DNA of 64,000 nt from Candidatus Saccharibacteria bacterium. Lineage in GTDB: Bacteria > Patescibacteriota > Saccharimonadia > Saccharimonadales > Saccharimonadaceae. The notes under the pieces are model-generated. The model did no database searches. It was not told the DNA's origin and saw nothing but the letters and a program-made list of their open reading frames with translations. The stretch spans positions 372,001 through 436,000 of the forward strand of contig JAEUQU010000002.1 of assembly GCA_016789455.1 (NCBI GenBank), written 5' to 3'. Every line of letters starts with the position of its first letter. The first letter of the stretch is position 1. The translations under genes were made by a program, and so were the position numbers. Positions 2,278-56,441 of this stretch are shown in pieces.

Positions 2278-2297
2278 CAGTCATAAGTAAGGTGCTT

Positions 2298-3146
2298 ATG
2301 ACAATTACACAACTCGAACACAAAGCCAACGAAATCCGGCAGGATATTATCCGTATGCTGGAACACGCCGGGAGCGGTCATTCGGCGGGACCGCTGGGCC
2401 TGGCGGATATTTTTACCGCTCTTTATTTCTCGATATTAAAGCATGATCCGCACAATCCTGATTGGGATGGCCGCGACCTGCTGGTGCTTAGCAACGGCCA
2501 CTGTGCGCCGGTGCGGTACGCCACCATGGCCCACGCCGGCTACTTCCCGCGCGAGGAACTGATGACCCTGCGCCAGCTGGGCACGCGCCTGCAGGGCCAC
2601 CCGGAGCGTACGCGCCTGCCAGGCATGGAAACCACCAGCGGTCCCTTGGGCAGCGGCCTGAGCCAGGCGGCCGGCATGGCCTACAGCCTGCTTAAGATTG
2701 ACAACGTCTACACGCGCTGGGTCTATGTCGTCCTAGGTGATGGCGAACTGAATGAAGGCAACATCTGGGAAGCCGCCATGTTCGCCGGCAAGAACAAGCT
2801 GCACAACCTGATCGGCATCATCGACCGCAATAATATTCAGATTGACGGCAACACCGAAGACGTCATGCCGCTGGAAGATCTGCGCGGCAAGTGGGAATCG
2901 TTCGGTTGGCACGTGGTAGAGATTGATGGCAACAACCTGGAGAGCATCGTCGATGCCTGCAGCATGGCCCGGGCCATCGTCGAGAAGCCGGTGATGATCA
3001 TCGCGCATACCATCCCTGGCCGCGGCGTTGATTTCATGGAGTACGATTACCACTGGCATGGCGCACCGCCGAACAGCCAGCAGGCCAAAGAGGCTCTCAA
3101 GAAGCTACGCACCCTGAACGGAAAGATACGGAGTGAACATGAATAA
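2298..3146 (+). CDS. Transketolase, N-terminal subunit
   Basis: A 282-residue thiamine-diphosphate-binding half of transketolase, which moves two-carbon units between sugar phosphates in the cytoplasm. The TPP motif is clear: GDGELNEG near 150, then an Asn pair in IIDRNN about 30 residues later. The active-site GHP is present in LQGHPER. TAAGG six bases upstream favours ATG 2298 over the GTG at 2292. The gene overlaps the C-terminal half by 8 bases, so the subunits are translationally coupled and should assemble as a heteromer, as in other split transketolases. It is first in an operon with aldolase and a sugar kinase. One product, sedoheptulose 7-phosphate, is the substrate of the GmhA domain encoded at 45.3 kb. 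Confidence 0.93.
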   Translation: MTITQLEHKANEIRQDIIRMLEHAGSGHSAGPLGLADIFTALYFSILKHDPHNPDWDGRDLLVLSNGHCAPVRYATMAHAGYFPREELMTLRQLGTRLQGHPERTRLPGMETTSGPLGSGLSQAAGMAYSLLKIDNVYTRWVYVVLGDGELNEGNIWEAAMFAGKNKLHNLIGIIDRNNIQIDGNTEDVMPLEDLRGKWESFGWHVVEIDGNNLESIVDACSMARAIVEKPVMIIAHTIPGRGVDFMEYDYHWHGAPPNSQQAKEALKKLRTLNGKIRSEHE

Positions 3147-4137
3147 TCTGGCGTCCCACTTACACCTTTCAGCCGATATCGGTGAGGACGGCATCGCCAG
3201 GGAGTCGACGCGCAAAGGCTTTGGCCGCGGTCTCAAGCAGGCCGGCGATCAGGATGAGCGTATCGTTGCGCTTTGTGCCGATCTGACTGAATCAACACAG
3301 ATATCCCAGTTCAGAGAGGCTCATCCCAAGCGGTACATCGAGGTGGGTGTAGCCGAGCAAAATCTGGTGACCGTCGCCGCCGGCCTGTCGGCAATGGGCA
3401 AAATTCCGTTCACTAGCAGTTACGCGGCCTTCAGCCCTGGTCGCAACTGGGAGCAGATTCGCACCACTGTCTGCCTGAACGAACGGCCGGTAAAGATCGT
3501 CGGATCGCATGCCGGGCTGAGCGTCGGCCCCGATGGCGCAACTCACCAGATGCTCGAGGATATCGCACTGATGCGCGTGCTGCCGCAGATGGTCGTCGTC
3601 GCGCCGGGTGACAGTGTTGAGGCCCAGAAGGCAACCTTGGCGGTCGCCTTTAATGATTCCCCGAGTTATATCCGTCTTGCCCGCGAAGACTCACCGGTAT
3701 TCACTACCGAGCACACGCCATTTGAAATTGGCAAAGCGTACATACTGAGGGAAGGCAAAGATATCACTATCTGCGCCACCGGTACCATGACGTACCAGGC
3801 GCTGCTCGCTGCCAAGACGCTGGAGGCCGACGGCATCCAGGCCGAGGTGCTGCACGTGCCGACCATCAAACCGCTCGACGTCGATACTATCGTGGCCAGC
3901 GCCAGCAAGACCGGCCTGGTCATCACCGCCGAAGAAGCCCAGATTGCCGGCGGCTTCGGCTCTGCCGTCTGCGAGGCCTTGAGCCTGCATCACCCGGTGC
4001 CTGTGCGCCGCATCGGTATGGAAGACCGTTTTGGTGAGTCCGGTAAGCCGGAGGAGCTGCTGAAGCAGTTCGGCCTCACCGGTACGCACATCGCCCTGGT
4101 GGCGCATGACATGCTCGATAACCGCAAGACGAAGTAA
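3139..4137 (+). CDS. Transketolase, C-terminal subunit
   Basis: A 332-residue partner of the preceding gene carrying the pyrimidine-binding and C-terminal domains. The Glu that activates thiamine lies in EVGVAEQNLV, followed by a SSYAAF segment typical of the family. A DXS-like arrangement was considered, but the separate N-terminal subunit with a transketolase signature argues for transketolase. Start ATG 3139 is preceded by GGAG; the in-frame GTG at 3133 is less likely. Cytoplasmic. Confidence 0.92.
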   Translation: MNNLASHLHLSADIGEDGIARESTRKGFGRGLKQAGDQDERIVALCADLTESTQISQFREAHPKRYIEVGVAEQNLVTVAAGLSAMGKIPFTSSYAAFSPGRNWEQIRTTVCLNERPVKIVGSHAGLSVGPDGATHQMLEDIALMRVLPQMVVVAPGDSVEAQKATLAVAFNDSPSYIRLAREDSPVFTTEHTPFEIGKAYILREGKDITICATGTMTYQALLAAKTLEADGIQAEVLHVPTIKPLDVDTIVASASKTGLVITAEEAQIAGGFGSAVCEALSLHHPVPVRRIGMEDRFGESGKPEELLKQFGLTGTHIALVAHDMLDNRKTK

Positions 4138-4164
4138 TAAAAGAAAACAAGGAACGCCAGCCCC

Positions 4165-27943: not shown

Positions 27944-29492
27944 ATCCGATTCGCGCTTCGCATTCCTGCGGGGTACTGCCAGCAAGCCGCTACTGCTCGT
28001 CAATATACTGTTGTCGATCATGTACTTCATCGTCATCACGTTCTTCTTTGAGCACGGCAACCCCATTCTGTTCTCGCTGCTGATCGCCGGTGAAGTCTTC
28101 CACCTCTGGCAGATCATCGGCTACTGTTACACCGTCTGGGAAATGAAGAATGACAGCGTTTTTGCGCCGCACTTCGCCCGGCCGGTCGATGTCTTCATCA
28201 CCGTGGCCGGTGAGCCGGTTGAAATTATCGAAGAGACCGCCCGCGCGGCGCTCGCCATGGATTACCCAAGCTTCACTGTCAACATCCTTAACGACGGCTA
28301 TGTGGCCAAGAAGGATAACTGGCAGGATGTCGTCCGTCTGGGCGAGGAGCTCGGTATCAACGTCATCACGCGCACCACGCCGGGCGGTGCCAAGGCAGGG
28401 AACATCAATAACGCCCTGCGTGAGACCAGTAACCCCTACGTCGTCATCTTCGACGCCGACCACGTGCCATACCCATCATTCCTGCGTGAGACCATGGGCT
28501 ATTTCATCGACCCCAAGATGGGCTTTGTGCAGACGCCGCAGTTCTACCACAACCAGGGCATTAACGGCGTGACACAAGTGGCCTGGGACCAGCAGTCGTT
28601 GTTCTTCGGCCCGATCATGGCTGGTAAAAACCGCCTGGGCTCGGTCTTTATGTGCGGCACCAACATGGTGCTTGCCCGGGAGGCCCTGACGGATGCCGGC
28701 GGCATGTGTGAGTTCAACATCGCCGAAGATTTCCTGACCTCGCTGTTCATGCACGAAAAAGGCTGGAAGAGTGTCTACGTGCCAAAAGTACTGGCCGAAG
28801 GCCTGGCACCCGAAGACTTCCTGTCGTACTACAAGCAGCAGTACCGCTGGACGCGCGGCAGCCTTGAGGTCATCTTCAAGTTCAACCCGCTGTTCCGCCG
28901 CGGTCTGAACTTCAAGCAGAAGATGCAGTACCTGATTTCCGCCAGCTACTACCTTTCCGGCGTGGTCGTGCTGATTGACGCGCTGCTGCCCATCATTTTC
29001 CTGTTCACCGGCCTGACCGCCATCACTACTTCTACCATGACCCTGGCGCTGGTCTTCATGCCGTACATCTTTGTCAGCCTGTATCTGCTGCAATCGACCA
29101 GTAACTACGCCTATACCTTCCAGGCTATCTCGTTCTCTATCAGCTCGTTCTTCCTGCAGATCCGCGCCCTCATCGCGGTGCTGCTCAACCAGAAGACTTC
29201 GTTCGTCGTCACCTCCAAGCAGGCTATCCAAGGCAACTTCCTGTACCTGGTGGTGCCGCAGATCGCCTATATCGTGCTGACTATCGCCGGGTCAATCGTC
29301 GCTTTCAACCGCGAAGGCATGTCGGCGTCGCTGCTGGCCAACCTGGCCTGGGCGTTGGTGACCGTGGCGTGTTTCATCCCGTTCATCATGGCCGCAGCGC
29401 CAAAACTGAGCCTGCCGGGTGCCAAGTGGCTGCAACGTCCGAGCAAGCGCCGGGCGGCCCATCAGCCCGTACCTGTGGAGCATGTGTCATGA
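27936..29492 (+). CDS. Cellulose-synthase-like processive glycosyltransferase
   Basis: A 518-residue membrane GT2. Two N-terminal membrane helices (about 15-60) are followed by the catalytic domain with NDGYVAKKD near 108, FDADH near 175, TPQFYH near 200 and QYRWTRG near 305 (the D, DxD and QxxRW motifs of processive beta-glycan synthases), then about five C-terminal helices. ATG 27936 is preferred over an in-frame TTG 12 bases earlier. No PilZ domain is visible, so control by cyclic-di-GMP is not indicated. The probable product is a beta-linked glucan or related polymer. Confidence 0.88.
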   Translation: MNKSDSRFAFLRGTASKPLLLVNILLSIMYFIVITFFFEHGNPILFSLLIAGEVFHLWQIIGYCYTVWEMKNDSVFAPHFARPVDVFITVAGEPVEIIEETARAALAMDYPSFTVNILNDGYVAKKDNWQDVVRLGEELGINVITRTTPGGAKAGNINNALRETSNPYVVIFDADHVPYPSFLRETMGYFIDPKMGFVQTPQFYHNQGINGVTQVAWDQQSLFFGPIMAGKNRLGSVFMCGTNMVLAREALTDAGGMCEFNIAEDFLTSLFMHEKGWKSVYVPKVLAEGLAPEDFLSYYKQQYRWTRGSLEVIFKFNPLFRRGLNFKQKMQYLISASYYLSGVVVLIDALLPIIFLFTGLTAITTSTMTLALVFMPYIFVSLYLLQSTSNYAYTFQAISFSISSFFLQIRALIAVLLNQKTSFVVTSKQAIQGNFLYLVVPQIAYIVLTIAGSIVAFNREGMSASLLANLAWALVTVACFIPFIMAAAPKLSLPGAKWLQRPSKRRAAHQPVPVEHVS

Positions 29493-31096
29493 ACCGTCTT
29501 GCTGATGATATCAAGAAGCCGGTCGTCGCCAAGAAGACGGACCAGCCGGTAAGCAAGCCGGCGGAAAAAGCCGCCGAGCAGGCCGAAGCACCCAAGAAGC
29601 GCGGTTTTGATTGGGGCAGGCTCCTGGTCGGTGCCGTCATCGCCGCCTGCATGGCCGGTGTGGTGTTGATCTCTCAACTCTTTCTTATCGACAACAGCCT
29701 GCGCCTGGACGAGAGCCAGAGCGTCTGGCAGGCCTCGCATAGCCTCAGCGGTATGCTTGGCGTGGTGGCACAGGACGTCCATATGCCGCTGTACCACATC
29801 CTGCTGCAGCAGTGGATGCACCTCTTCGGCGATAGTGTCGTCAGTGTACGCTCTATGTCGATGGTATTCTTCCTGGCGACGATTCCGTTTGTCTATCTGT
29901 TGGCCAGGTTGGTGCTTTCACGCAAGTGGTCGCTGATAGTGACCATCCTCTTCAGCCTGTCGCCGTTCATGAACTGGTATGCCAACGAGGCGCGTATGTA
30001 CACCTTGCTGGTGTTCTTTGCGGCGGCCAACCAGTACTTCTACGCCCGTATACTCAAGGACGGCAAGGGGTGGTTCGGCTACCTGCTGACCACCATCTTC
30101 GGCGCTTATTCGCATTACTTCTTCATGTTCAACCTGCTGGCCCAGGCCATGTTCTACCTGGTCAACCGTAAGAAGTACTTCAGGCCCGGCATGTTCAAAC
30201 GCTTCATCGGCGTCATGGTGGCGCTGGCCGTAGCCCTGTCACCCTGGGTGGCCTACTTCATCATGTCCGGTCTGGCCAGCAACACCCGGCCGCTGATTGA
30301 GCGTCCGACGGCGGTCAACTTCTTCAACGTCTACTCGCAGTTCCTGTTCGGTTTCCAGACGGACGCCGTCAACACGGCCATCGTCTCGCTTTGGCCGCTG
30401 ATTCTGATCATCGCCTTCTTCACGGTCAAGCGCCACCTGCGCATGGACCGCGTGGTAGCCTATCTGCTGACCATGGCCTTCGTACCGATTATTGTGGCGT
30501 TCGCGCTCAGCTTCGTAGTGACGCCATTCTTTTTGAGCCGCTACATGGTGTCGGCCATCGCGCCGCTGACCATCGCGCTGGTCTGGCTGATCAGCCGCTA
30601 TGGGCCCAAGTTCTCGACGCTGCTGATCACGCTCTGGTTCCTGATCGTTGGCGCTACCTTCACGCAGCAGCTAGCCAGCGCTGATACGCCGGTGAAGGAA
30701 GACTTTAAGGCCGCAGCCCAGAGCATTGAGAAGACATCGTCCGTGCATGACATCATCGTGCTTTCCAGCCCGTTCACCGTGTATCCATTTGAATACTACT
30801 ACGACGGCCCGCTGCAGATCCGCACCTTGCCGCTCTGGGACCGCCAGAACATTGGCGCCGTCCCAACCTTCAGCGAGGAACGTTTGCCCGAAGAAGTCGA
30901 GACCCTCAAAGAAGGTCACGACTACATCTACCTGCTCCTGAGCTATGACCAGGGCTACGAAGAAGAGATCTACCAGCACTTCAACATGCGTTACGAAAAA
31001 GTGAAGACGCAGAAGTTCTCCAACGACCTCACCCTGCATGTCTACCGCGTCGGCTACGACGTCATGCCTGAAGTGCTGCCGACCGTCGACCAGTAG
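29489..31096 (+). CDS. GT39/ArnT-like integral membrane glycosyltransferase
   Basis: A 535-residue protein. A Lys/Ala-rich cytoplasmic tail (1-45) precedes about ten membrane helices. LRLDESQSVWQ just after the first helix is the D-E motif of GT-C enzymes that use polyprenyl-phosphate sugars, and HMPLYH follows. The C-terminal 130 residues are soluble. It overlaps the previous gene (ATGA). It probably uses the donor made by the first operon gene to modify protein, lipid or the nascent polymer outside the membrane. Confidence 0.8.
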   Translation: MNRLADDIKKPVVAKKTDQPVSKPAEKAAEQAEAPKKRGFDWGRLLVGAVIAACMAGVVLISQLFLIDNSLRLDESQSVWQASHSLSGMLGVVAQDVHMPLYHILLQQWMHLFGDSVVSVRSMSMVFFLATIPFVYLLARLVLSRKWSLIVTILFSLSPFMNWYANEARMYTLLVFFAAANQYFYARILKDGKGWFGYLLTTIFGAYSHYFFMFNLLAQAMFYLVNRKKYFRPGMFKRFIGVMVALAVALSPWVAYFIMSGLASNTRPLIERPTAVNFFNVYSQFLFGFQTDAVNTAIVSLWPLILIIAFFTVKRHLRMDRVVAYLLTMAFVPIIVAFALSFVVTPFFLSRYMVSAIAPLTIALVWLISRYGPKFSTLLITLWFLIVGATFTQQLASADTPVKEDFKAAAQSIEKTSSVHDIIVLSSPFTVYPFEYYYDGPLQIRTLPLWDRQNIGAVPTFSEERLPEEVETLKEGHDYIYLLLSYDQGYEEEIYQHFNMRYEKVKTQKFSNDLTLHVYRVGYDVMPEVLPTVDQ

Positions 31097-45301: not shown

Positions 45302-47242
45302 ATGAAACATAAGATTGCCCTCATCAGTGAACATGCCTCGCCGCTTGCGGCCATCGGTGGCGTGGACGCCGGCGGGCAGAACGTGGCGGTGGCCGAACTG
45401 GCGCAGCATCTGGCGGCAATCGGGTATGAAGTGGATGTCTTTACGCGGTGGGATGATCGGCGCTTGCCGGCAATCGTCAACTGGCGTGACGGTGTCCGCG
45501 TCATCCATGTCAAAGCCGGTCCGGTCACCTATGTACCCAAGGAGCAGATTCTGCCGTTCATGTCTGAGTTCACGGACTTCATAGCGGCATTCATCGAGCG
45601 CGAAGGCAATCCCTATAAGTTAATTCATGCCCACTTCTTTATGTCGGCACTGGTTGCGGCAGATTTGAAAAAGCGCCTCGGTATACCATTTGTGGTAACT
45701 TTTCACGCGCTGGGCAAGGTGCGCCGCAAGCACCAGGGCAAGCAGGACTGGTTCTCTGACGAGGGCTTTGCCATTGAGGAGCGCGCCGTGCTTGAGGCCA
45801 ACCAGATTGTCGCCCTCTGTCCGCAGGACCACGAAGACCTGGTAAGGCTTTACAATGCCGACCCAGCAAAGATAGCGATTATTCCCAACGGATACAACCC
45901 GTCTGAACTTTACCCGATGGACAAGCTGCTGGCCCGGACAGTACTCGGCCTCGATCCGAAGGAAAAGGTCATTTTGCAGCTTGGCCGCATGGTGAAACGC
46001 AAAGGTGTCGACACGGTAGTCAAAGCCTTGGCCGAGCTTAAGCATACACACCGAACCAAAGCGCGCCTGGTCATCGTCGGTGGCGAATCGGATGCGCCAG
46101 ATGCTGGCATTACGCCGGAAATCGGCCGCCTGCAGGCTCTGGCCGAAAAGCTGGAAGTATCAGACATGGTGACCTTTACCGGCCGACGCGGGCGCGATGC
46201 CTTGCATTATTACTACAGTGCGGCTGATGTCTTTGTGACGGTGCCGTGGTACGAACCGTTCGGCATCACGCCGGTGGAAGCGATGGCCTGCGGCACACCA
46301 GTGGTCGGCTCGGCCGTGGGCGGCATTAAGCATACGGTACGGGAAGGGGAAACAGGATTCCTGGTGCCGCCAAAAGATGCTGCCAGCCTGGCCGGGCGCC
46401 TTAAGGATATCCTGAGTAGCCGTAAGTTGCGTGATTTTTTCAGCGAAAATGCTCTGCGTCACGTCAAAGCTCACTACACCTGGGCCCGCGTAGCAAACTC
46501 GACCGCCACTATGTACGAGCGTGTAGTGCTGGAAAGCCCGCGCCGCGTCGATATCGATGTCACGGATGACAGCTTTGCCATCATCGACCAAAATTTTGCC
46601 GGATTGCTCCAGGCCGTGAAGGATACGAAACACGCATTGCGCGTGCCTATCATGGATGCCGCCCAGGCTATCAGCCGGGCCTTGCTGCAGGGCAACCGGG
46701 TGCTGCTGTGCGGCAACGGCGGCAGTGCGGCCGAGGCCCAGCACTTTGCTACCGAGTTGGTCGGCCACTATAAGATCGATGGCCGACGCGCTTTGCCGGC
46801 GCAGGCCCTGACCACCGACGGCACCCTGCTGACGGCCTGGGGTAACGATGCGGCTTTTGACCAGATTTTCTCACGCCAGGTAGAGGCCTTCGGTCAGCCA
46901 GGCGATGTCCTGATTGCCCTGACCACCAGCGGCAATTCACCCAATATCGTAGAAGCCTGCCATGCCGCCCGCAAGCAGGAGATGTTCTGTATCGGTATGC
47001 TGGGCGGATCGGGCGGCGCGGTGGCACCGCTGGTGGACATCGCACTGACTGTGCCGTCGCATGACACGCCGCGCATCCAGGAGATACATCAGCACCTGGT
47101 GCATACGCTCAGCTATCTGGTGGAACGCAGTATAGAAGCGGCCGACCAAAAGGAGCGTGAACGCCTGCCCCAGTGGAAATTCAACAAACTTAGTACTACA
47201 GTGCATGCCCGTATAGCGGCCGGACAACGAAAGGATTCCTGA
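45302..47242 (+). CDS. Fusion of GT4 glycosyltransferase and GmhA-type heptose isomerase
   Basis: A 646-residue two-domain protein. Residues 1-410 form a GT-B family 4 glycosyltransferase (GGVDAGGQNV near 16, IPNGYNP near 197, EPFGITPVEAMACGTPVVG near 320). Residues 425-630 form a SIS-domain phosphoheptose isomerase (GNGGSAAEAQHFATELVG near 464, TTSGNSPN near 542). GmhA converts sedoheptulose 7-phosphate to heptose 7-phosphate, the first step to ADP-heptose, so synthesis and transfer are joined in one chain. No stop or frameshift lies between the domains. First gene of an overlapping operon; the next ATG overlaps its stop by one base. Confidence 0.88.
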   Translation: MKHKIALISEHASPLAAIGGVDAGGQNVAVAELAQHLAAIGYEVDVFTRWDDRRLPAIVNWRDGVRVIHVKAGPVTYVPKEQILPFMSEFTDFIAAFIEREGNPYKLIHAHFFMSALVAADLKKRLGIPFVVTFHALGKVRRKHQGKQDWFSDEGFAIEERAVLEANQIVALCPQDHEDLVRLYNADPAKIAIIPNGYNPSELYPMDKLLARTVLGLDPKEKVILQLGRMVKRKGVDTVVKALAELKHTHRTKARLVIVGGESDAPDAGITPEIGRLQALAEKLEVSDMVTFTGRRGRDALHYYYSAADVFVTVPWYEPFGITPVEAMACGTPVVGSAVGGIKHTVREGETGFLVPPKDAASLAGRLKDILSSRKLRDFFSENALRHVKAHYTWARVANSTATMYERVVLESPRRVDIDVTDDSFAIIDQNFAGLLQAVKDTKHALRVPIMDAAQAISRALLQGNRVLLCGNGGSAAEAQHFATELVGHYKIDGRRALPAQALTTDGTLLTAWGNDAAFDQIFSRQVEAFGQPGDVLIALTTSGNSPNIVEACHAARKQEMFCIGMLGGSGGAVAPLVDIALTVPSHDTPRIQEIHQHLVHTLSYLVERSIEAADQKERERLPQWKFNKLSTTVHARIAAGQRKDS

Positions 47243-47973
47243 TGAAAAAGCAGTTTTTGAAAGACAAGGTAGCATTGATCACTGGCGGCAGCCAGGGGCT
47301 TGGCGAAGCTATCTCGCGCCGTTTGGCGCACGCTGGCGCCACGGTCTGCATCGCGGATATCAAGAAGGAACAGGCTGAGCAGGTGGCTGCTTCCATTACT
47401 GAGGCGGGCGGCAAGGCGGTTGCCATCGAGCTGAACGTCACCAGCCCGGAAGGGGCCACGAGGGTCGTGGAGCAGCTTAAGGCCGATCAGGGCAGCATTG
47501 ATATCCTCGTCAATAACGCCGGTACTGATGCCACCAAGCCGCTGACTGATCTGACCGTCGACGACTGGAACCGGGTGATCGGCGTCAACCTGAGCGGTCC
47601 GTTCCTGCTTTCCAAGGCGGTCTATCCTGTTATGAAAGCACAGGGCAGCGGCCACGTCATCAATATCACTTCTACGGCTGCCAAGCGTACGTGGACTGAA
47701 GCTACGGCGTATCACGCCAGCAAGTGGGGTTTGCTCGGCTTCAGCCACGCCCTGCATGCAGAAGGCCGTCGTGACGGCATCAAAGTGACGGCCGTGGTGG
47801 CTGGCGGTATGCGCACTGCCTTTATCCTAGAGCGGTTCCCAGACACCGATCCGAATGTCCTGCAGGACCCGAAGAATGTGGCCGAGACCGTCTGCTTTGC
47901 CCTGAGTCTGCCAGACGAAAGTGTCATCCCGGAGGTCATGGTGCTGCCGATGCGGGAGACCTCATGGCCGTAA
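47242..47973 (+). CDS. Short-chain dehydrogenase/reductase (classical SDR)
   Basis: A 243-residue NAD(P)-dependent oxidoreductase with TGGSQGLGEA near 13, NNAG near 88, catalytic Ser in ITSTAAK and YHASK near 153. It is FabG-like in layout. It is too short and of the wrong SDR class for the heptose epimerase HldD, so its substrate in this heptose operon is unclear; it might reduce or oxidise a sugar. Overlaps gmhB by 10 bases. Confidence 0.85.
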   Translation: MKKQFLKDKVALITGGSQGLGEAISRRLAHAGATVCIADIKKEQAEQVAASITEAGGKAVAIELNVTSPEGATRVVEQLKADQGSIDILVNNAGTDATKPLTDLTVDDWNRVIGVNLSGPFLLSKAVYPVMKAQGSGHVINITSTAAKRTWTEATAYHASKWGLLGFSHALHAEGRRDGIKVTAVVAGGMRTAFILERFPDTDPNVLQDPKNVAETVCFALSLPDESVIPEVMVLPMRETSWP

Positions 47974-48569
47974 CCCGCCGGCCGGCCGTCTTCATTGATA
48001 AGGACGGCACTTTGATTAAAGACGTACCGTACAACGTCAGGCCGGAACTGATTGCGCTGTATCCGGATGCTGCCATCAGCCTGGCGGCCCTGCAGCGCGC
48101 TGGTTATAAAATAATCGTCGTTTCCAATCAATCCGGTGTGGCCCGGGGTATATTTACGGCAGAAGATTTGCAACCGGTCAGCGACGCCATCCGAGACAGG
48201 CTGCAGCCGCACGGCGTTAATCTGACCGCTATCTACTACTGTCCGCATTCGGCGGTTGACGGCTGCTATTGCCGCAAGCCACGCTCCGGCATGCTGCGCC
48301 AGGCGGCTGCCGAGCATGGTATCGATCTGACCGCATCATGGATGGTCGGCGATATCCTCAACGACGTGGAGGCAGGCAACCGGGCTGGCTGCCGCACTAT
48401 CCTGATAGATAACGGTAATGAGACGGAGTGGCTGCCTGGCCCTCACCGTGCACCATTCGCTACCGTTGGCAGTCTGACTGCCGCTGCCCGCACTATCATT
48501 ACTACCAAGCACAAGGAGACGAACCATGAAACGCAGTTTGCAGGACATCATCTCGCACTTCACCGATAA
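47964..48569 (+). CDS. gmhB: Heptose bisphosphate phosphatase GmhB (HAD)
   Basis: A 201-residue HAD phosphatase removing the 7-phosphate from heptose 1,7-bisphosphate. FIDKDGTL near 10 carries the nucleophile and acid Asp; VVSNQSGVARG near 52 is motif II; YYCPHSAVDGCYCRKP near 92 is the GmhB zinc loop with Cys and His ligands; MVGDILNDVEAG near 130 gives the metal Asp pair. GGGAG precedes the ATG. Its 3' end overlaps hldE by 44 bases, and the last 15 residues are probably a non-conserved extension. Confidence 0.92.
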   Translation: MAVTRRPAVFIDKDGTLIKDVPYNVRPELIALYPDAAISLAALQRAGYKIIVVSNQSGVARGIFTAEDLQPVSDAIRDRLQPHGVNLTAIYYCPHSAVDGCYCRKPRSGMLRQAAAEHGIDLTASWMVGDILNDVEAGNRAGCRTILIDNGNETEWLPGPHRAPFATVGSLTAAARTIITTKHKETNHETQFAGHHLALHR

Positions 48570-49989
48570 AAAGGTCCTCGTCATCGGCGAGGCCATGCTG
48601 GACGTCTACCTGACGGGTGCGGCTCACCGTGTCTGCCGCGAGGCGCCGGTGCCGATTGTCGACATCGACCAGATGCAGTTCGTGCCGGGCGGAGCTGCCA
48701 ACACGGCCGTTAACCTGGCTAATTTGGGCGCCAAGGTATCGTATCTGACCGTCATCGGCAACGACCATGAGGGCGAGTTGGTGCGCGACAGTCTGATAAA
48801 GCATGGCATCGATACAAGTCTGGTCTTGGGCGACAGTGGACGGCGCACCATCACCAAGCAGCGTGTCATGGCAGGCGACCACATGCTGGTGCGGTTTGAT
48901 TTTGGCACGACCACCGATATCAGCCCCAAAAGCGAGCAGGAGTTCATACGCGAGCTGACCAAACAGTACCACGAGGTCGATGCCGTCATCATTTCTGACT
49001 ACGGCTACGGCATTTTGACTGACCGCATCATCCGGCGCATCAAGACGTTGCAGGCTGCCGATGAGAACATCCTGGTCGTCGATGCCAAATCGCTCGATAA
49101 GTACCGTACCGTCGGCGCCACGGCCGCCAAGCCCAACTACCAGGAGCTGACGACGCTGCTTTCCATCACTGACCCGGCTCCCCATGGCCGGAGGGCTGCG
49201 CAGCTGGAGGAATACCGGCATGCCATCCTCAATACAGTCGGTGCCCGGTATGTCGCTGCGACACTGGACAAGGAAGGCGCCCTGCTGTTCCGTCGCGGCC
49301 GCAAGCCATACCGTACGTATTCCAAACCGGTTGAGAACAATAAGGCTGCCGGCGCTGGCGACACGTATGTCAGCGCGCTGACCCTGGCACTTGCCGCCAA
49401 GGCGAACATTGAGCAGGCCAGTGATCTGGCCCAGGCGGCAGCCATGGTAATCCTTGGCAAGTCCGGCACCGCCACCTGTGGCCAGGATGAGCTTGTTTCG
49501 GCCATGACCCACGATAATAAGTATCTGCCCGAATGGACTGAGCTGAAGCGCAAGGTGCAACGGCTCAAAGCCGAGGGACGCAAAATAGTGTTCACCAATG
49601 GTTGCTTCGATATACTTCATGGCGGCCACGTACAGTATCTGCAGCAGGCCAAGGCACGGGGCGACATCCTGGTGGTCGCACTGAACAGCGACGAAAGTGT
49701 CGCCCGCCTGAAGGGGCCTCAGCGCCCGGTCAACACGCTTGTGGAACGGGCACGGGTGATGGCTGGGCTGGGTGCCGTCGATATCGTCACGGCCTTTACC
49801 CAGGACACCCCTGTCGACCTGTTGGAGGTAGTCCGGCCTGACATCTATGTAAAGGGCGGCGACTATAAGCGGGAAGACCTGGTAGAGGTGCCGGTGGTTG
49901 AGCGCCATGGTGGTACGGTTGAGATACTGAACTTCCTTGACGGCCGCTCGACCTCTAATGTCATTGCTAAGATCAGGCAACATTCTTAG
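48526..49989 (+). CDS. hldE: Bifunctional heptose kinase / ADP-heptose synthase HldE
   Basis: A 487-residue fusion. The N-terminal ribokinase-like domain (1-315; GGAANTAVNLANLG near 63, NKAAGAGDTY near 272) phosphorylates heptose 7-phosphate at C1. The C-terminal cytidylyltransferase-fold domain (345-485; FTNGCFDILHGGHVQYL near 352, with the HxGH motif) attaches AMP to give ADP-heptose. AAGGAG lies 7 bases before the ATG. With GmhA and GmhB it completes the route to ADP-D-glycero-beta-D-manno-heptose. Confidence 0.95.
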   Translation: MKRSLQDIISHFTDKKVLVIGEAMLDVYLTGAAHRVCREAPVPIVDIDQMQFVPGGAANTAVNLANLGAKVSYLTVIGNDHEGELVRDSLIKHGIDTSLVLGDSGRRTITKQRVMAGDHMLVRFDFGTTTDISPKSEQEFIRELTKQYHEVDAVIISDYGYGILTDRIIRRIKTLQAADENILVVDAKSLDKYRTVGATAAKPNYQELTTLLSITDPAPHGRRAAQLEEYRHAILNTVGARYVAATLDKEGALLFRRGRKPYRTYSKPVENNKAAGAGDTYVSALTLALAAKANIEQASDLAQAAAMVILGKSGTATCGQDELVSAMTHDNKYLPEWTELKRKVQRLKAEGRKIVFTNGCFDILHGGHVQYLQQAKARGDILVVALNSDESVARLKGPQRPVNTLVERARVMAGLGAVDIVTAFTQDTPVDLLEVVRPDIYVKGGDYKREDLVEVPVVERHGGTVEILNFLDGRSTSNVIAKIRQHS

Positions 49990-50013
49990 CCACGGTTGAG
50001 ACGGACGCGCGAC

Positions 50014-51093
50014 ATGTTCGAAGGATGGCAGCACTATCGCAACATACTCTGCATCAGGCCCGACAACATGGGCGACGTACTGATGACCGAACCGGCCCTC
50101 AGGGCTTTGAAAGAGGCCGTGCCTGGGCGCAAGCTGACACTGTTGACATCTTCGGCGGGTGCAGCAGTGGCCCGGCTGCTTCCCGTCGTCGACGATATCA
50201 TTACGTTTGATGTGCCCTGGGCAAAGCACGAGGCCGCGTGGGACGGTACAGCCGTAGCAGCCATGGCCGGACAATTGCGGGAGAGGCGGTATGATGTCGC
50301 GGTCATCTTTACTGCGTATAGCCAGAACCCGCTGCCGGCAGCCATGCTGTGCTTCATGGCCGGCATGCCGCATGCGCTGGGGTATTGCCGCGAAAATCCT
50401 TACGGACTGATGGATTGCTGGGTGCCCGATCCCGAGCCACTTGATACTATCCGGCATGAAGTGGACCGGCAACTGGCCCTGGTGGCGACAACCGGTGCCA
50501 GGACGGAGGACACCGCCATGCACCTACCGGTGCCTGAGCAGCCAGGCCAGGAGATACGGCGCCGCCTGCAGGCAGAAGTGCCGTCAGGCGGCCGATGGCT
50601 GGTGCTCCATCCCGGAGTCAGTGAAGCGAAGCGACGATATCCTCCCGGGCACTATGCCGAGGCGATGCGCACCTTGGTCGCAGACGGTTTCACTGTCGTC
50701 ATGACGGGGGCAGCCACGGAAAAGGCTCAGGTGGACGAGCTGGCACAAGCCATCGGCACAGGCGTCGTCAATCTGGCGGGACAGCTGAGTGTCTCCGAGC
50801 TGGCAGCACTGTTGGCCGAGGCGCCGCTGCTGGTGGCAAACAATACCGGACCGGTGCATATTGCCGCTGCCGTCGGTACGCCGGTGGTAGTCTTGTACGC
50901 TATGACCAATCCGCAGCATACGCCGTGGCAGGTGCCGCATAGTGTGCTGTACTTTCCGGTCGAACCGGAGCTGCGCAGTAAGAACCGCTTTTTACAGACG
51001 TTTCCTGGCGCCGGCGAGCCGGCCGCTTCGCCGGCGGCCATCGTCAAGGCCGTACACGGTCTGATTGATGCGCCAAGGGAGGCAAGCTCATGA
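50014..51093 (+). CDS. GT9 heptosyltransferase family protein 1
   Basis: A 359-residue GT-B enzyme of family 9 (ADP-heptose:acceptor heptosyltransferases). ILCIRPDNMGDVLMTEPALRA at the N-terminus is the family signature, LHPGVSEAKRRYP near 185 is the second-domain strand, and NNTGPVHIAAAVGTPVV near 270 the donor-binding loop. ATG 50014 is preferred over a TTG at 49996 because the signature then begins near residue 10, as usual. Acceptor unknown. Confidence 0.87.
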   Translation: MFEGWQHYRNILCIRPDNMGDVLMTEPALRALKEAVPGRKLTLLTSSAGAAVARLLPVVDDIITFDVPWAKHEAAWDGTAVAAMAGQLRERRYDVAVIFTAYSQNPLPAAMLCFMAGMPHALGYCRENPYGLMDCWVPDPEPLDTIRHEVDRQLALVATTGARTEDTAMHLPVPEQPGQEIRRRLQAEVPSGGRWLVLHPGVSEAKRRYPPGHYAEAMRTLVADGFTVVMTGAATEKAQVDELAQAIGTGVVNLAGQLSVSELAALLAEAPLLVANNTGPVHIAAAVGTPVVVLYAMTNPQHTPWQVPHSVLYFPVEPELRSKNRFLQTFPGAGEPAASPAAIVKAVHGLIDAPREASS

Positions 51094-52175
51094 CGACACC
51101 ATCATCTTTCACGCCAGAAACAGTCAAGAAGATTGCCGTGTTACGTGCCAATGCCTTGGGCGATTTCATTTTCAGCATCCCGGCGCTGGCGGCCTTACGC
51201 CGGACTTTTCCGGGAGCCGAGATCGTTTTACTAGGCAAACCTTGGCACACGAAATTCGTCCCAGGGCGCGTGCAGGCGGTCGATCGGGTAGTGGTCACCC
51301 CACGCTACAAGGGCCTGGGCGAACCCGAAGACTACCAGCCGGATGAGGCGGAGCTGACGCAATTCTTCCTGGCTATGCAGGCCGAGCATTTTGATATCGC
51401 CCTGCAGATGCACGGCGGCGGTGGCAACTCAAATCCTTTCGTCAGCCGTCTTGGCGCCGGCTTTACGGCTGGTATGCGCGACACGGGCGCACCGGCGCTC
51501 GATGCCACCATCGCTTACGTCTTTCACCAGAACGAAATCATGCGGCAGCTGGAGGTGGCGGCTATGGTCGGAGCTTCCACTTCCGACATAATGCCGGAGG
51601 TCATCGTCCTGCCGGAGGACTATGCAGAAGCCCGGTCGGTAAGCAGGAAGCATGGGCTGCAGGCACGATATCTCGTCTTGCACCCGGGTGCTACTGATCC
51701 GCGCCGTCAGTGGCCGCCAGAACACTTTGCCGAAGTGGCCCGCCACTATATGGAGCAGGGTTATGGAGTGGCGGTAACGGCAGTGGCAGCCGAAGCTGAC
51801 CTTGCCGAACGTATCTGTGCGGCCGCACCGGGTGCCATCAATCTGACGGATACGCTGAGTATGGGCGGCCTGGCTGCGCTGCTATCGGCTTCGGCCGTAG
51901 TACTCAGTAATGATACGGGGCCGCTTCACCTTGCCAACGCCGTCGGTGCGCGCACGGCCGGCATCTACTGGGTAGGCAACGTGATTACAGCCGGGCCGCC
52001 GCGGGTCGCCCGGCACCGGCCGCTGGTCAGCTTCCAGATAGATTGTCCGGTCTGTGGCGTGCCGACGGCCCAGCCAGAATCGAAGGCGGAGCGCAGTTGT
52101 CCGCATAACGACTCCATTGTCGCGCAGGTGTCGCCAGACTACGCCTGCCGGATGATTGACCAGCTACTGGTTTAG
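51090..52175 (+). CDS. GT9 heptosyltransferase family protein 2
   Basis: A 361-residue paralogue of the preceding gene, overlapping it by 4 bases. IAVLRANALGDFIFSIPALAAL near 15, QMHGGGGNSNP near 108, LHPGATDPRRQWP near 192 and SNDTGPLHLANAVGA near 270 are the GT9 landmarks. Four cysteines near the C-terminus (CPVCGVP, CPHND, ACR) are not typical and might bind metal. Last gene of the first heptose operon. Confidence 0.87.
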   Translation: MTTPSSFTPETVKKIAVLRANALGDFIFSIPALAALRRTFPGAEIVLLGKPWHTKFVPGRVQAVDRVVVTPRYKGLGEPEDYQPDEAELTQFFLAMQAEHFDIALQMHGGGGNSNPFVSRLGAGFTAGMRDTGAPALDATIAYVFHQNEIMRQLEVAAMVGASTSDIMPEVIVLPEDYAEARSVSRKHGLQARYLVLHPGATDPRRQWPPEHFAEVARHYMEQGYGVAVTAVAAEADLAERICAAAPGAINLTDTLSMGGLAALLSASAVVLSNDTGPLHLANAVGARTAGIYWVGNVITAGPPRVARHRPLVSFQIDCPVCGVPTAQPESKAERSCPHNDSIVAQVSPDYACRMIDQLLV

Positions 52176-52634
52176 GGCTCGGCTTTCTTCGCACCTGCGC
52201 AAGTGCCAGTCAGGACGGCTTCAGCCAGGATATGGCCCTGCATAGCCGGCCTGACGGTTGTTTTATCAGCGGTGGCGGGCAGGTCTAACAGGCTGTCCAG
52301 GGCGAACAGCTGGAACCGGTAGTGGTGGAGGCCGCCAAAGTATATAGGTGCCGGACCCTCATAGCCCGGCGTGCCCCCCATTGGCATGACCCTCAGTGCC
52401 GCCGGCCGGTATCGTGCCCGCCGCCACTTCGCGTGTCTGGGGCGGAATATTGAACACCAGCCAGTGCACCCATGGATCCGGGGTGGCATCGGCATCTTCC
52501 ACCACGAGCACCAGGCTTTTGGCCTCTGCCGGAATGTCACTGAAGGCCAGTGGAGGGCTGATGTTGGCACCGGCGCCGGTGTATTGCTCCGGTATCGTTG
52601 AAAGTCCTGTAAAGGCAGGGCTGATGATATTCAT
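52172..52634 (-). pseudogene. Frameshifted YbhB/YbcL-type PEBP protein
   Basis: Two reading frames on the - strand together make a normal phosphatidylethanolamine-binding-like protein of about 150 residues. The N-terminal frame gives NISPPLAFSDIPAEAKS, VEDADATPDPWVHW and GHANGG, then stops; the other frame continues GGTPGYEGPAPIYFGG, HHYRFQLFALD and the family end. The junction is a run of six G (C at 52374-52379); five G would restore the frame. So this is a one-base insertion, a sequencing error, or slipped-strand switching. AAGGAG lies before the ATG. It is convergent with the GT9 gene, overlapping its stop, inside the heptose cluster. Confidence 0.8.
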
Positions 52635-52721
52635 GAAGGTCTCCTTAGTCTAAGGATAGTGAACAATAACGCGCCGCCAGCGACTGTATAAAATCTCATA
52701 GCCGTACCACGCCGCCAGTCA

Positions 52722-52727
52722 TATACT
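52722..52727 (+). promoter_or_regulatory. -10 box of the second heptose operon
   Basis: TATACT 15 bases before the ATG at 52743. Confidence 0.5.
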
Positions 52728-52742
52728 GCCGCCAGAACATCT

Positions 52743-53735
52743 ATGGCCGATATTACCCACGAACCCATCAACAAGATCGCCGTCTTCCGCGCCCTGCGCC
52801 TGGGAGATGTGTTGGTGGCCATACCAGCGTTGAGAGCGCTCCGTGCCGCCTTTCCGAGGGCGCACATCGACTACATCGGCTTGCCGATGACTCGTGAACT
52901 TGTGCAGCGCTACACCAGCTACATAGACGGCTACATAGACTTTCCAGGCTATCCGCCGTTGCCCCAGCAAGAGGCCGACCCGGCCAGGGTGGTGGAGTTT
53001 TTGCAGCGGATGCAGGCCGGTACATACGACCTGGCGATACAGATGCACGGCAACGGCTCCAGTACGAATGCCCTGGTGGCGCTGTTTGGTGCCCGACGCA
53101 CAGCCGGCTATGCCATACCGGAAGGCTACTGGCCCAACCGGCAGTGGTTCATGGCCCATCCCGAAGGCCAGCCCGAAATTCTACAGCATCTCGCGCTGAT
53201 GGAGTTCCTCGGTATCAAGAACCAAGGCGAGAAGCTGGAATTTCCCATGAGCGACGAGGATCAGCGGCGGCTCAAGGCCTTATTCAATCCGCAGTCCCAG
53301 CCATATGCCTGCATCCATCCAGGAGCGTTCAGCAACGCCCGCTGGCCGGCAGAGCAGTTCTCCGTGGTGGCCGACCGGCTGGCAGAGACGGGACTCACCA
53401 TCGTCCTGACCGGATCCGAACAAGAGCGCGGGCTGACGGGCCAGGTGGCCGCCGGCATGAAATCCGATGCCATAGACCTGGCCGGCAAGACAGACCTGGG
53501 TACGCTGGCGGCACTGCTGCGCCACAGCCGCCTGCTGGTCAGCAATGACACCGGCGTGGCACATATGGCCGTTGCCACCGATACGCCCAGTGTCACCATC
53601 TTCACGACGGCCGACCCGGCTGTCTGGGCCGCACTCGACCAGCAGCGCCATCCATATCTGACGCTCGATTGGGCCACGCCCACGACCGTATTGAACAAAG
53701 CGACCGAATTACTGAAAGGAGCCCATCATGAGTAA
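52743..53735 (+). CDS. GT9 heptosyltransferase family protein 3
   Basis: A 330-residue third GT9 member: KIAVFRALRLGDVLVAIPALRAL near 10, QMHGNGSSTNALVALFG near 102, CIHPGAFSNARWP near 184 and SNDTGVAHMAVATDTPSV near 262. Three such enzymes suggest a glycan with several heptose residues or distinct linkages. It overlaps the next gene by 8 bases. Confidence 0.87.
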   Translation: MADITHEPINKIAVFRALRLGDVLVAIPALRALRAAFPRAHIDYIGLPMTRELVQRYTSYIDGYIDFPGYPPLPQQEADPARVVEFLQRMQAGTYDLAIQMHGNGSSTNALVALFGARRTAGYAIPEGYWPNRQWFMAHPEGQPEILQHLALMEFLGIKNQGEKLEFPMSDEDQRRLKALFNPQSQPYACIHPGAFSNARWPAEQFSVVADRLAETGLTIVLTGSEQERGLTGQVAAGMKSDAIDLAGKTDLGTLAALLRHSRLLVSNDTGVAHMAVATDTPSVTIFTTADPAVWAALDQQRHPYLTLDWATPTTVLNKATELLKGAHHE

Positions 53736-54669
53736 TAAGTTACGAGTCTTTACCTGGCATATCCACGGCAGTTACCTGTATTACCTGACACAGGCCGATG
53801 TTGAGTTCTACCTGCCGAAAGGTGAGGGCGAAGGATATGGCGGCCGGGCCGGCACCTTCCCGTGGGGCGAGAATGTCCATGAGATTCCAATTGACGAGGT
53901 CAAGAACCACACGTTCGACATCATCCTGTTTCAGCACCGAAAGAACTACCTAAACGATCAGTACGAAATACTCAGCGAAGCACAGCGCAACCTGCCAAAA
54001 ATCTATCTGGAGCATGACCCGCCGCAGGAGCACCCCACTGATACGAAACATTTCGTGGACGACCCGCAGGTGCAGCTGGTCCATGTCACCCATTTCAACC
54101 AGCTGATGTGGGACAATAACCGCACGCCCAGCACCGTCATCGAACACGGCGTCATGGTGCCGGAAGACGTGACGTATACGGGCGAAGTCGCCAAAGGCCT
54201 GGTCGTCGTCAATAACCTTGGGAAGCGCGGCCGTCGTCTTGGGCTGGACGTTTTTGAGACGGTGCGCGGGCAAGTACCGCTCGAGCTAGTAGGCATGGGT
54301 GCTACCGACATCGGCGGCAGCGGGGAGGTGCAGCCGCACAAGATTGCCCGCTACGCGAGCCACTATCGCTTTTTCTTCAATCCCATCCGCTATACCAGCC
54401 TGGGCCTGGCCGTCTGTGAAGCCATGATGGTCGGCCTGCCTATCGTCGGACTGGCGACCACTGAGATGGCGACGGTCATCACGAATGGTAAGAACGGCTA
54501 TATCGCCACCGATCCGCAGGAACTGATTGAAAAAATGCAGCTGCTGCTTGATAATCCAGAGCATGCCAAACACCTAAGCAGGAGTGCCCGCCAGTATGCT
54601 CAGGAGCGCTTCGGTATCGAACGCTTCGCCCGCAACTGGGAAGCGCTGTTCGCCACGGTTGCTAAATAG
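53728..54669 (+). CDS. GT4-like glycosyltransferase
   Basis: A 313-residue GT-B type transferase. LRVFTWHIHGSYLYYL at the N-terminus, VIEHGVMVP near 137 and TSLGLAVCEAMMVGLPIVGLATTEM near 227 (the E-x7-E-like donor region), then NGKNGYIATDP. It lacks a membrane segment. The sugar donor is not deducible. It lies between a GT9 enzyme and a dehydrogenase in the same transcription unit. Confidence 0.82.
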   Translation: MSNKLRVFTWHIHGSYLYYLTQADVEFYLPKGEGEGYGGRAGTFPWGENVHEIPIDEVKNHTFDIILFQHRKNYLNDQYEILSEAQRNLPKIYLEHDPPQEHPTDTKHFVDDPQVQLVHVTHFNQLMWDNNRTPSTVIEHGVMVPEDVTYTGEVAKGLVVVNNLGKRGRRLGLDVFETVRGQVPLELVGMGATDIGGSGEVQPHKIARYASHYRFFFNPIRYTSLGLAVCEAMMVGLPIVGLATTEMATVITNGKNGYIATDPQELIEKMQLLLDNPEHAKHLSRSARQYAQERFGIERFARNWEALFATVAK

Positions 54670-54678
54670 GGGAGTATC

Positions 54679-55608
54679 ATGCAAGAAGTCTACGTTACCG
54701 AACCCGGTGCCATTAACCTTGATCAGCTGCGGCAGCTGCTGCCGGCAGACAGCTATGCCATCACCGCCGGACACCCCACCTTCGCCGGCGATTTCACCTC
54801 CCGGGCGCAGGTGCTCATCATCCGTACCGCCACGACCGTCACGCCGGAGGTGTGTCAGAAATTTCCGCAGCTAAAGGCGGTGATCCGTATGGGTACCGGT
54901 TTGGATAACGTCGACACTAAGTATTGCGAAACTGCCGGCATCAAGGTCTATAACGCGCCTGGAGCCAACGCTGATGCCGCCGCTGAGTATGTGACCGCCA
55001 TGATCCTGCATGTCCGCCGCCGGCTTTACCTGCTGGATGAGCAACGGGTCAGTAGCTGGCGGCGCTTTGACTTCAGTGGAACCAGCATCAGTGAGCAATC
55101 CGTCGGTATCGTCGGGTTCGGCAATATCGGCAAGCTGCTCAAGCAGAAACTGGCCGGACTGGGCGCGAGTGAATTTTATGTGTACGACCCGTTCCTGACC
55201 GCCGAAACCGTCACCCAGTACGGCGCGACCATGCTTGCACTGGATGAGCTGCTGGCTCAAGCCGACATTGTCTCGCTGCACCTGCCGCTGACCGACGAGA
55301 CCAGACACCTCATCAATGACGATAAGCTGGCCCTGATGAAAGAAGGCGCCCTGCTTATCAACGCAGCCCGCGGCGGCATCGTCGACGAGACGGCACTGTT
55401 GGCTGCCATTCAGTCGAAGAACCTGTACTACGTCGCCGATACCGTGGAAGGTGAGCCGCACGTCAATCCGGCGCTGCTGGCACACGAGCGGGTGGTGGTG
55501 ACGCCACATATCGCCAGTCTGACCGCTGCCTCCGAAACAGCGATGCTCTCTACTGCGGTCGGGAACTTCCTGAAAGCACAGGGTCCTGTGTCAGTGGACA
55601 AATATTGA
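54679..55608 (+). CDS. D-isomer-specific 2-hydroxyacid dehydrogenase
   Basis: A 309-residue NAD-dependent oxidoreductase of the SerA/LdhA superfamily. VGIVGFGNIGKLLKQKL near 137 is the NAD loop; the catalytic residues are the Arg of NAARGG near 232, Glu of VEGEP and His of TPHIAS near 274. There is no ACT domain, so it is shorter than typical SerA. Its role in a glycan cluster is unclear: it may supply D-3-phosphoglycerate-, glycerate- or lactate-type substituents. GGGGAG precedes the ATG. A promoter for the next RNA lies in its 3' end. Confidence 0.85.
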   Translation: MQEVYVTEPGAINLDQLRQLLPADSYAITAGHPTFAGDFTSRAQVLIIRTATTVTPEVCQKFPQLKAVIRMGTGLDNVDTKYCETAGIKVYNAPGANADAAAEYVTAMILHVRRRLYLLDEQRVSSWRRFDFSGTSISEQSVGIVGFGNIGKLLKQKLAGLGASEFYVYDPFLTAETVTQYGATMLALDELLAQADIVSLHLPLTDETRHLINDDKLALMKEGALLINAARGGIVDETALLAAIQSKNLYYVADTVEGEPHVNPALLAHERVVVTPHIASLTAASETAMLSTAVGNFLKAQGPVSVDKY

Positions 55609-55823: not shown

Positions 55824-56339
55824 CTACACGGGCCTGCCGCCGCAGAGCACCACCTTGTCGTTGGCGCCGAAGTCGCGGCCGAGGAACTTGATGGTCCTGA
55901 TGTCGCTGCCCAGGCCTTCAGGCAGGTCGACGACGACGCTGTCGTTGACGATGGCCCCCGTGAAGGGTGCAGGCTGGCCGGTGAAGGTGACGTGCAGCCC
56001 GTCCGGCAGCTGCCGGCCGGCGATGATGACGCCGTCGGCATCGAGGTTGCCCATCAGGTTGATCTCGACGGGCTTGCCGTGCTTCTCGTCGCAGACGGGC
56101 TGGCCGCCGGGCTGCCAGACGACGCCGTCGACGAAGCCGGTCTTGGGGTAGACCTCGGTCTCGTCGGGCCGCGCGTCCGGGCTGGTGCTCTCGGGTGCGC
56201 CCGCGGGTGGCGGGGCGGCTTCGGCGCTGGCAGTCGCTTCGCCGCTGGGTGCGGGCGCACCGGGGGTGCTGCCGCCGCAGCCGGCCAGAACAAGCGCGCC
56301 TGCGCTCAACACCAAGGCCAGGCGTATCCAAAACCACAT
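55824..56339 (-). CDS. Unknown lipoprotein
   Basis: A 171-residue exported lipoprotein: MWFWIRLALVLSAGALVLAGC has a clean lipobox (LAGC). A Pro/Ala/Ser/Glu-rich linker follows (25-70), then a small domain of about 100 residues with GFVDGVVWQPGGQPVCDEKHG, VIIAGRQLPDGLHVTF and a final VVLCGGRPV; its two Cys could pair. GGAG lies 5 bases before the ATG at 56339; a longer open frame upstream is unlikely. Monocistronic and GC-rich, of actinobacterial appearance. No family recognised. Confidence 0.72.
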   Translation of the reverse strand: MWFWIRLALVLSAGALVLAGCGGSTPGAPAPSGEATASAEAAPPPAGAPESTSPDARPDETEVYPKTGFVDGVVWQPGGQPVCDEKHGKPVEINLMGNLDADGVIIAGRQLPDGLHVTFTGQPAPFTGAIVNDSVVVDLPEGLGSDIRTIKFLGRDFGANDKVVLCGGRPV

Positions 56340-56441
56340 AGGAGCTCCCATGTCGGGCCAGTGCCGAGTGCGCTGGCTGTGTGCATATATCATCATTAGA
56401 CGTGCAAGAAGTCAATAGTTACTGGTACGGACGTGCGCCTC

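Follow-up and report, generated by a model that had tools for sequence, protein, structure and literature searches.

In Gram-negative bacteria the ADP-heptose of lipopolysaccharide (LPS) is made in four enzymatic steps, with a kinase and an adenylyltransferase activity joined in the bifunctional HldE. Complete sets of nucleoside diphosphate (NDP)-heptose enzymes have also been reported from organisms without LPS across kingdoms (Tang et al. 2024, as summarised in PMC11461863 and PMC11573728), and the use of heptose outside the Gram-negatives is regarded as an open question (PMC11573728). Among freshwater genomes of the candidate phyla radiation (CPR), the pathway is recorded for Paceibacteria only (PMC9166423), in the one relevant paper on heptose in CPR bacteria that we found. 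The present analysis concerns a window of 64,000 nucleotides (the whole stretch of DNA analysed; positions 372,001 to 436,000 of contig JAEUQU010000002.1, assembly GCA_016789455.1) from a Candidatus Saccharibacteria bacterium, in which the interval 45302-55608 carries the same steps, motifs and bifunctional HldE together with five glycosyltransferase genes. We read this block as a horizontally acquired heptose-glycan island that makes a heptosylated glycoconjugate other than LPS, with a probability of roughly 0.7. The reading is drawn from the gene content, the catalytic motifs, the absence of LpxC, Omp85 and HldD, the island status of the block and the occurrence of the same locus in other bacteria, all of which were read from the sequence.

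The island consists of nine genes on one strand and a single antisense gene, flanked by rpoC (end 44812) and rpsL (start 56617). It begins with a fusion of a family GT4 glycosyltransferase to the phosphoheptose isomerase GmhA, followed by a short-chain dehydrogenase/reductase (SDR), GmhB, HldE, two family GT9 transferases (GT9a and GT9b), the antisense PEBP-family gene, a third GT9 (GT9c), a second GT4-like transferase (GT4b) and a D-2-hydroxyacid dehydrogenase (Table 1). The spacing is -44 to +6 bp across the first six genes and -8 to +9 bp across the last three; since the genes overlap or nearly touch, the island is operon-like. The genome contains exactly three GT9 genes, every one of them within the island. 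The GmhA domain, GmhB, HldE, three GT9 and two GT4-like transferases listed in the first-pass annotation are all intact open reading frames (ORFs) with matching profiles, whereas the fusion of GT4 to GmhA and the SDR had been overlooked; the antisense PEBP gene and the terminal dehydrogenase are further additions. For this dehydrogenase no close homologue was found in the other heptose loci, and its membership in the pathway is uncertain. On its right-hand side the island is bordered by a small, lipoprotein-like ORF (55824-56396, minus strand), for which neither Pfam nor NCBIfam gave a match and the fetched relatives gave no homologue.

Table 1. Genes of the heptose island and the split transketolase of the same window (window positions)
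Feature	Position	Strand	Support
GT4 glycosyltransferase (residues 1-409) fused to phosphoheptose isomerase GmhA (SIS_2, ~430-610)	45302..47242	+	Pfam PF00534/PF13439, PF13580
Classical SDR oxidoreductase, YxxxK, C-terminal ETSWP tail	47242..47973	+	PF00106 E 4e-56
GmhB-type HAD phosphatase (heptose 1,7-bisphosphate 7-phosphatase)	47964..48569	+	NF006506, DKDGTL and zinc motif
Bifunctional HldE (heptose 7-phosphate kinase and heptose 1-phosphate adenylyltransferase)	48526..49989	+	TIGR02199, TIGR02198, motifs
GT9a, heptosyltransferase-like, WaaF-like	49996..51093	+	PF01075 1e-31
GT9b, heptosyltransferase-like	51090..52175	+	PF01075 2e-25
PEBP-family protein, antisense within the island	52172..52570	-	PF01161; 60% identity to L132 homologue
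GT9c, heptosyltransferase-like	52743..53735	+	PF01075 2.5e-35
GT4b, GT4-like transferase	53728..54669	+	PF13692/PF00534 in C-terminal half only; synteny
D-2-hydroxyacid dehydrogenase	54679..55608	+	PF02826 2e-51
Split transketolase, two genes, outside the island	2292..4137	+	PF00456, PF02779, PF02780

All the genes predicted to lead from sedoheptulose 7-phosphate to ADP-heptose (GmhA, GmhB and HldE) are present with their catalytic motifs. In the GmhA domain, whose nearest solved structures are GmhA 1tk9/2xbl, the HxxxE and Q(x7)H residues known from solved phosphoheptose isomerases are retained, and the fusion motifs GSAAEAQHFATE and RIQEIHQHLVH are conserved. An AlphaFold model of the fusion, built from three sequences, was too poor for use (mean pLDDT 47.8). 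GmhB retains the DKDGTL motif of the HAD phosphatases and the zinc motif CPH..CYCRKP (CxH...CxC); in HldE, the kinase motif GAGDT and the nucleotidyltransferase motif HxGH are both present. In terms of scores, the SIS, PfkB and GT9 domains lie far over the Pfam cut-offs and HldE domain II exceeds its NCBIfam cut-off (TIGR02199, 203.8 bits versus 181.5), whereas lower values were obtained with TIGR02198 (253.6 bits, cut-off 345), the full-length HldE equivalog model (401 bits, cut-off 521), GmhA TIGR00441 (176.8 bits, cut-off 209) and GmhB NF006506 (149.6 bits, cut-off 178); all three GT9s likewise fall below the curated cut-offs of the LPS heptosyltransferase I/II/III models (WaaC/WaaF/WaaQ, equivalog level). 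Because the full-length equivalog scores are below cut-off, we consider HldE, GmhA, GmhB and the GT9s divergent members of their families. The terminus of HldE reads FLDGRSTS, which has the Arg at position 5 of the STTR5 motif (F/L)XXGRSTT and Ser in place of the last Thr. According to the summaries in PMC11461863 and PMC11573728, this motif marks nucleotidyltransferases that can also make CDP- and UDP-heptose, and the HldE of the island may do so as well.

The sedoheptulose 7-phosphate likely derives from the split transketolase. The two transketolase genes are followed by a class II aldolase and a PfkB kinase, the group as a whole occupying positions 2292-6033. Only the L,D form of the heptose requires the HldD 6-epimerase, and the statement of the first-pass annotation that HldD is absent holds genome-wide: a profile search of the genome (96% complete) found none. 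An HldD encoded elsewhere was considered and rejected, as the sole protein matching TIGR02197 (123 bits, cut-off 274.6) is GalE (TIGR01179, 372.5 bits versus 262.3). With no HldD, the heptose is predicted to stay in the D,D form.

The host genome measures 1.44 Mb in two contigs. Its 16S gene carries the site of probe TM7-305, in the sequence that we take this probe to have, with two mismatches. The site of the Saccharibacteria probe TM7-1177 (name and sequence from PMC6073563) is exact, without a mismatch. LpxC and Omp85 were found neither in this genome nor in 40 relatives, by a search that was positive in the control genomes where they were expected and that covered LpxC alone among the lpx and waa genes. 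These results support the earlier view of an apparently monoderm CPR bacterium, and extend to the genome, for these two proteins, the earlier remark that no lipid A or outer-membrane gene was seen.

Within the lineage the block stands as an island. Among 197 genomes of the order, this one alone has a canonical HldE that exceeds the cut-off of the family. At a threshold of 1e-30, HldE matches appear in 13 other genomes among 380 of the phylum; identity is 29-43% in all of them, and the kinase and the nucleotidyltransferase are mostly encoded by different genes. The congener (G197) gave no match. In all 12 of the relatives that have rpoC and rpsL on one fetched stretch (from the set L152-L167), the two genes are separated by about 0.05-2.3 kb with no heptose gene; in the other four stretches rpoC was not found near rpsL, and they stand outside this count. 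The congener, whose rpoC is 88% identical, has a gap of 940 bp, likewise with no heptose gene, and its intergenic DNA showed no alignment with the borders of the island. Vertical inheritance within the Saccharibacteria is rejected by the island-less junction in the relatives and by the distribution of HldE. Base composition gave no clear foreign signal (GC 0.594 versus 0.599 in the flanking genes; GC at third codon positions 0.70 versus 0.76). The cluster had been presented as a trait of a CPR bacterium; the host is indeed one, but neither the congener nor any other sampled relative has the island, which is shared with Nitrosospira-type bacteria. The spacer itself varies in length among the relatives and is not conserved between the window and the congener, and the junction may be a recurrent insertion site.

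Synteny with other bacteria was established by tblastn, because grouping the called ORFs left out genes of GC-rich loci. For G-numbered genomes, the name Microgenomates means here that they belong to the sample from the class of Roizmanbacteria UBA1450, and the name Burkholderiales that they belong to the sample from the order of Nitrosospira Nsp11. The closest copy (L132), in the Nitrosospira-type betaproteobacterium G946, has homologues of all the island genes except the dehydrogenase, with 42-69% identity. Its order is fusion, SDR, GmhB, HldE, GT9a, GT2, an inositol-monophosphatase-like gene, PEBP, GT9c, GT4b and GT9b; thus the first five genes are in identical order, whereas the GT2 and the inositol-monophosphatase-like gene are extra, GT9b is on the opposite strand and no 2-hydroxyacid dehydrogenase was found. 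In Nitrosospira sp. Nsp11 (L058) the fusion, SDR, GmhB and HldE follow the order of the island up to the end of the contig. Roizmanbacteria UBA1450 (L059) has GT4b, the fusion, SDR, GmhB, HldE, an extra HldE nucleotidyltransferase domain and GT9a, and four other genomes of its class contain related clusters, half of them with a GT4 that is not fused to GmhA. These Microgenomates loci (L059 and L133-L136) share the GT4(-GmhA)-SDR core with the island, mostly with GmhB, the HldE kinase, GT9 and GT4b, but differ in their variable gene order, in the lack of GmhA in L135/L136 and in an adjacent ABC exporter in L059 (MsbA-type, 3589-5391) and L134. The ordered set of GT4-GmhA, SDR, GmhB, HldE and GT9 genes is common to the island and the Nitrosospira/Microgenomates locus. 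The first-pass annotation had missed the near-complete betaproteobacterial copy and the relatives in Microgenomates and Burkholderiales.

More distant versions lack part of the pathway. GT4 matches at 1e-120 were found in 13 further genomes among 399 sampled from the Nitrosospira order; eleven fetched loci of this order, as well as loci on Burkholderia/Paraburkholderia plasmids, have neither GmhA nor HldE and hold varied sets of GT4, SDR, GmhB, GT9a, GT9c and GT4b. The Burkholderiales copies lie on chromosomes and on plasmids. Three Burkholderia/Paraburkholderia loci (L107, L108, L168) are arranged as GT4-GmhB-GT9-carbamoyltransferase-GT-GT9-GT4, in which GT4, GmhB, GT9a, GT9c and GT4b are homologous to those of the island (43-57% identity); they differ in lacking GmhA and HldE and in the added carbamoyltransferase and UDP-glucuronate decarboxylase, with an ABC transporter in some. 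These three lie on large replicons among stress-type genes (hemerythrin, manganese catalase, PRC-barrel, BON, DUF892), and two of them have a PIG-L deacetylase and glycosyltransferase gene pair nearby. The Arthrobacter plasmid StoSoilB13-2 (L110, 8317-18955), whose annotation is of no use, carries a rearranged, divergent set with two HldE-like genes and relatives of GT9, GT4, GmhA, GmhB and SDR. GT4b is conserved in most homologous loci (46-66% identity). Copies outside the LPS-bearing Burkholderiales usually possess their own GmhA and/or HldE, whereas the Burkholderiales copies other than the Nitrosospira-type omit both, which is what one would predict were ADP-heptose provided by LPS synthesis in those hosts. 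Judged from locus content only, this fits a need of LPS-less hosts for their own GmhA and HldE, with the Burkholderiales drawing on their LPS pathway. The near-copies in Nitrosospira-type, Burkholderia-type and other tiny bacteria point to a widespread non-LPS heptose product.

The gene trees give a mixed account of the origin. In the GT4 tree the Saccharibacteria protein groups with the Nitrosospira-type pair (100/99), and in the GT9a tree it joins G946 weakly (86/72) within a strong trio that includes Roizmanbacteria (100/98), whereas GT4b is paired with Roizmanbacteria (96/88); the trees of SDR and GmhB have little resolution. An origin from other CPR bacteria was considered, and the GT4 tree sides with the Nitrosospira type while the GT4b tree does not. 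Horizontal acquisition is thus well supported; because the GT4/GT9a and GT4b trees disagree and the others are weak, the donor and the direction are not settled.

In the scheme that we propose, where the enzyme activities, the donor of each transferase, the role of the SDR, the acceptor and the export are predicted, the transketolase would supply sedoheptulose 7-phosphate to GmhA, GmhB and HldE for the formation of ADP-D,D-heptose, possibly along with CDP- and UDP-heptose. The three GT9s would transfer heptose, and the two GT4s other sugars, to a putative acceptor. The SDR represents a distinct subfamily (STAAKR-W--A-AYHASKWGLLG ... ETSWP) and adjoins GT4 or GmhB in most homologous loci; hence its probable role is to modify one sugar of the product through a redox or epimerisation step. 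The product would be a heptosylated glycoconjugate that most probably stays on the cell surface or is exported. Genes for carbamoyltransferases and for MsbA-like ABC exporters are found repeatedly beside the homologous loci, the exporter often together with the carbamoyltransferase, and this recurrence suggests export. The first-pass proposal of a cell-wall glycan or glycoprotein is possible, although the recurrent exporters favour an exported glycoconjugate over protein glycosylation.

Several points weigh against the heptose-glycan interpretation. The specificity for the donor is not assured, given that the full-length equivalog scores of GmhA, GmhB, HldE and the GT9s fall short of the curated cut-offs. 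GT9a, whose best solved relative is 1psw, has Asn throughout its subfamily in the (N/D)TGPxH motif, where WaaC has what we take to be a functional Asp of the DTG motif, and its donor may consequently differ. GmhB and the SDR are kept in loci without GmhA or HldE, so that GmhB may have another substrate. Finally, no acceptor, flippase, polymerase, ligase or exporter was found in the island, to which the search for an exporter was confined.

An unlikely alternative, though one with several points in its favour, is that the product is a small heptose oligosaccharide or metabolite, soluble or secreted; a GT4 resembling sucrose-phosphate synthase (SPS) or MshA would link a sugar to a small acceptor that bears a phosphate, and the GmhB-like phosphatase would then take this phosphate off. 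The best solved relatives of the GT4 part are MshA 3c48 and 6kih Tll1590, the latter presumably a sucrose-phosphate synthase, and this GT4 is fused to an enzyme that acts on a ketose phosphate. GmhB also stays with GT4 in Burkholderiales loci without GmhA and HldE, the island has no lipid-linked initiating transferase or flippase, and ABC exporters stand beside several loci. Yet the GT4 domain scores well below the cut-offs of both models (285.8 of 462.5 bits for MshA, 149.2 of 576 bits for SPS), three GT9s exceed the need of a small metabolite, and HldE with GT9 fits the standard nucleotide-heptose route. A further, rather improbable reading is that of an undescribed, horizontally spread heptoglycan system: the phosphate of a heptose or heptulose would serve the SPS-like GT4-GmhA as the starting point of the molecule, modification would fall to GmhB and the locus-specific SDR, and the GT9s would extend the molecule with heptose for export. 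If true, the Saccharibacterium would possess, in the absence of LPS, a surface or secreted molecule that contains heptose.

We find it very hard to favour protein O-heptosylation, in which the GT9s would modify a surface protein as the TibC/Aah heptosyltransferases do: the GT9 superfamily includes such enzymes, but the TIGR04414 matches of GT9a and GT9c are weak (21.6 and 19.6 bits, far under the cut-off of 200), several different glycosyltransferases act together, and neither an autotransporter nor a repeat adhesin is encoded in the island. It is scarcely credible that the island is a remnant or cryptic pathway for the LPS inner core in a cell with an outer membrane, typical as heptosyltransferase-like and ADP-heptose genes are of LPS cores. 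LPS core synthesis is rejected by the absence of LpxC and Omp85 from this genome (96% complete) and from 40 relatives; the lack of the island in relatives and the sub-threshold LPS heptosyltransferase scores also speak against it.

Elsewhere in the window, a GH8 glycoside hydrolase, a cellulose-synthase-like GT2 and a PMT_2-type membrane protein are encoded in tandem on one strand (26774-31096), a possible cellulose-like exopolysaccharide operon in a Saccharibacterium. A protein with a ricin-type beta-trefoil lectin domain in its C-terminal part is encoded at 23426-24361 (minus strand).

The locus is common to LPS-bearing Burkholderiales, monoderm CPR bacteria and an Arthrobacter plasmid, and it offers a concrete gene set, with the GT4-GmhA fusion and the signature SDR, for finding the product. 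In Saccharibacteria, which usually live on other bacteria, a heptose would be an unexpected surface or secreted sugar. NDP-heptoses activate ALPK1 (PMC11461863), and the remark of the first-pass annotation that ADP-heptose triggers this sensor is chemically sound, although nothing here places the organism on an animal; the island may represent a source of an ALPK1 agonist from a cell without LPS.

In comparison with the known systems, the island is unlike the Gram-negative LPS pathway in the fusion of GmhA to a GT4, the inserted SDR, the lack of HldD and a genome without LpxC and Omp85. With the NDP-heptose enzymes found across kingdoms it has in common a complete set of heptose enzymes in an organism without LPS; its HldE motif resembles STTR5 but ends in STS and not STT, and the summaries in PMC11461863 and PMC11573728 name no GT4-isomerase fusion among the enzyme types. 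The 13 genomes of the same phylum mostly have separate kinase, phosphatase and nucleotidyltransferase genes, with 29-37% identity to the kinase of the island. We found neither the locus nor the GT4-GmhA fusion described in print, nor any account of the pathway in Saccharibacteria, in a literature coverage that excluded most subscription papers. As NDP-heptose synthesis outside the Gram-negatives has been published, the pathway itself is not new, whereas the type of locus and its setting in Saccharibacteria appear to be undescribed; the comparison thus provides good support for a known pathway in an unexpected host, within a conserved locus.

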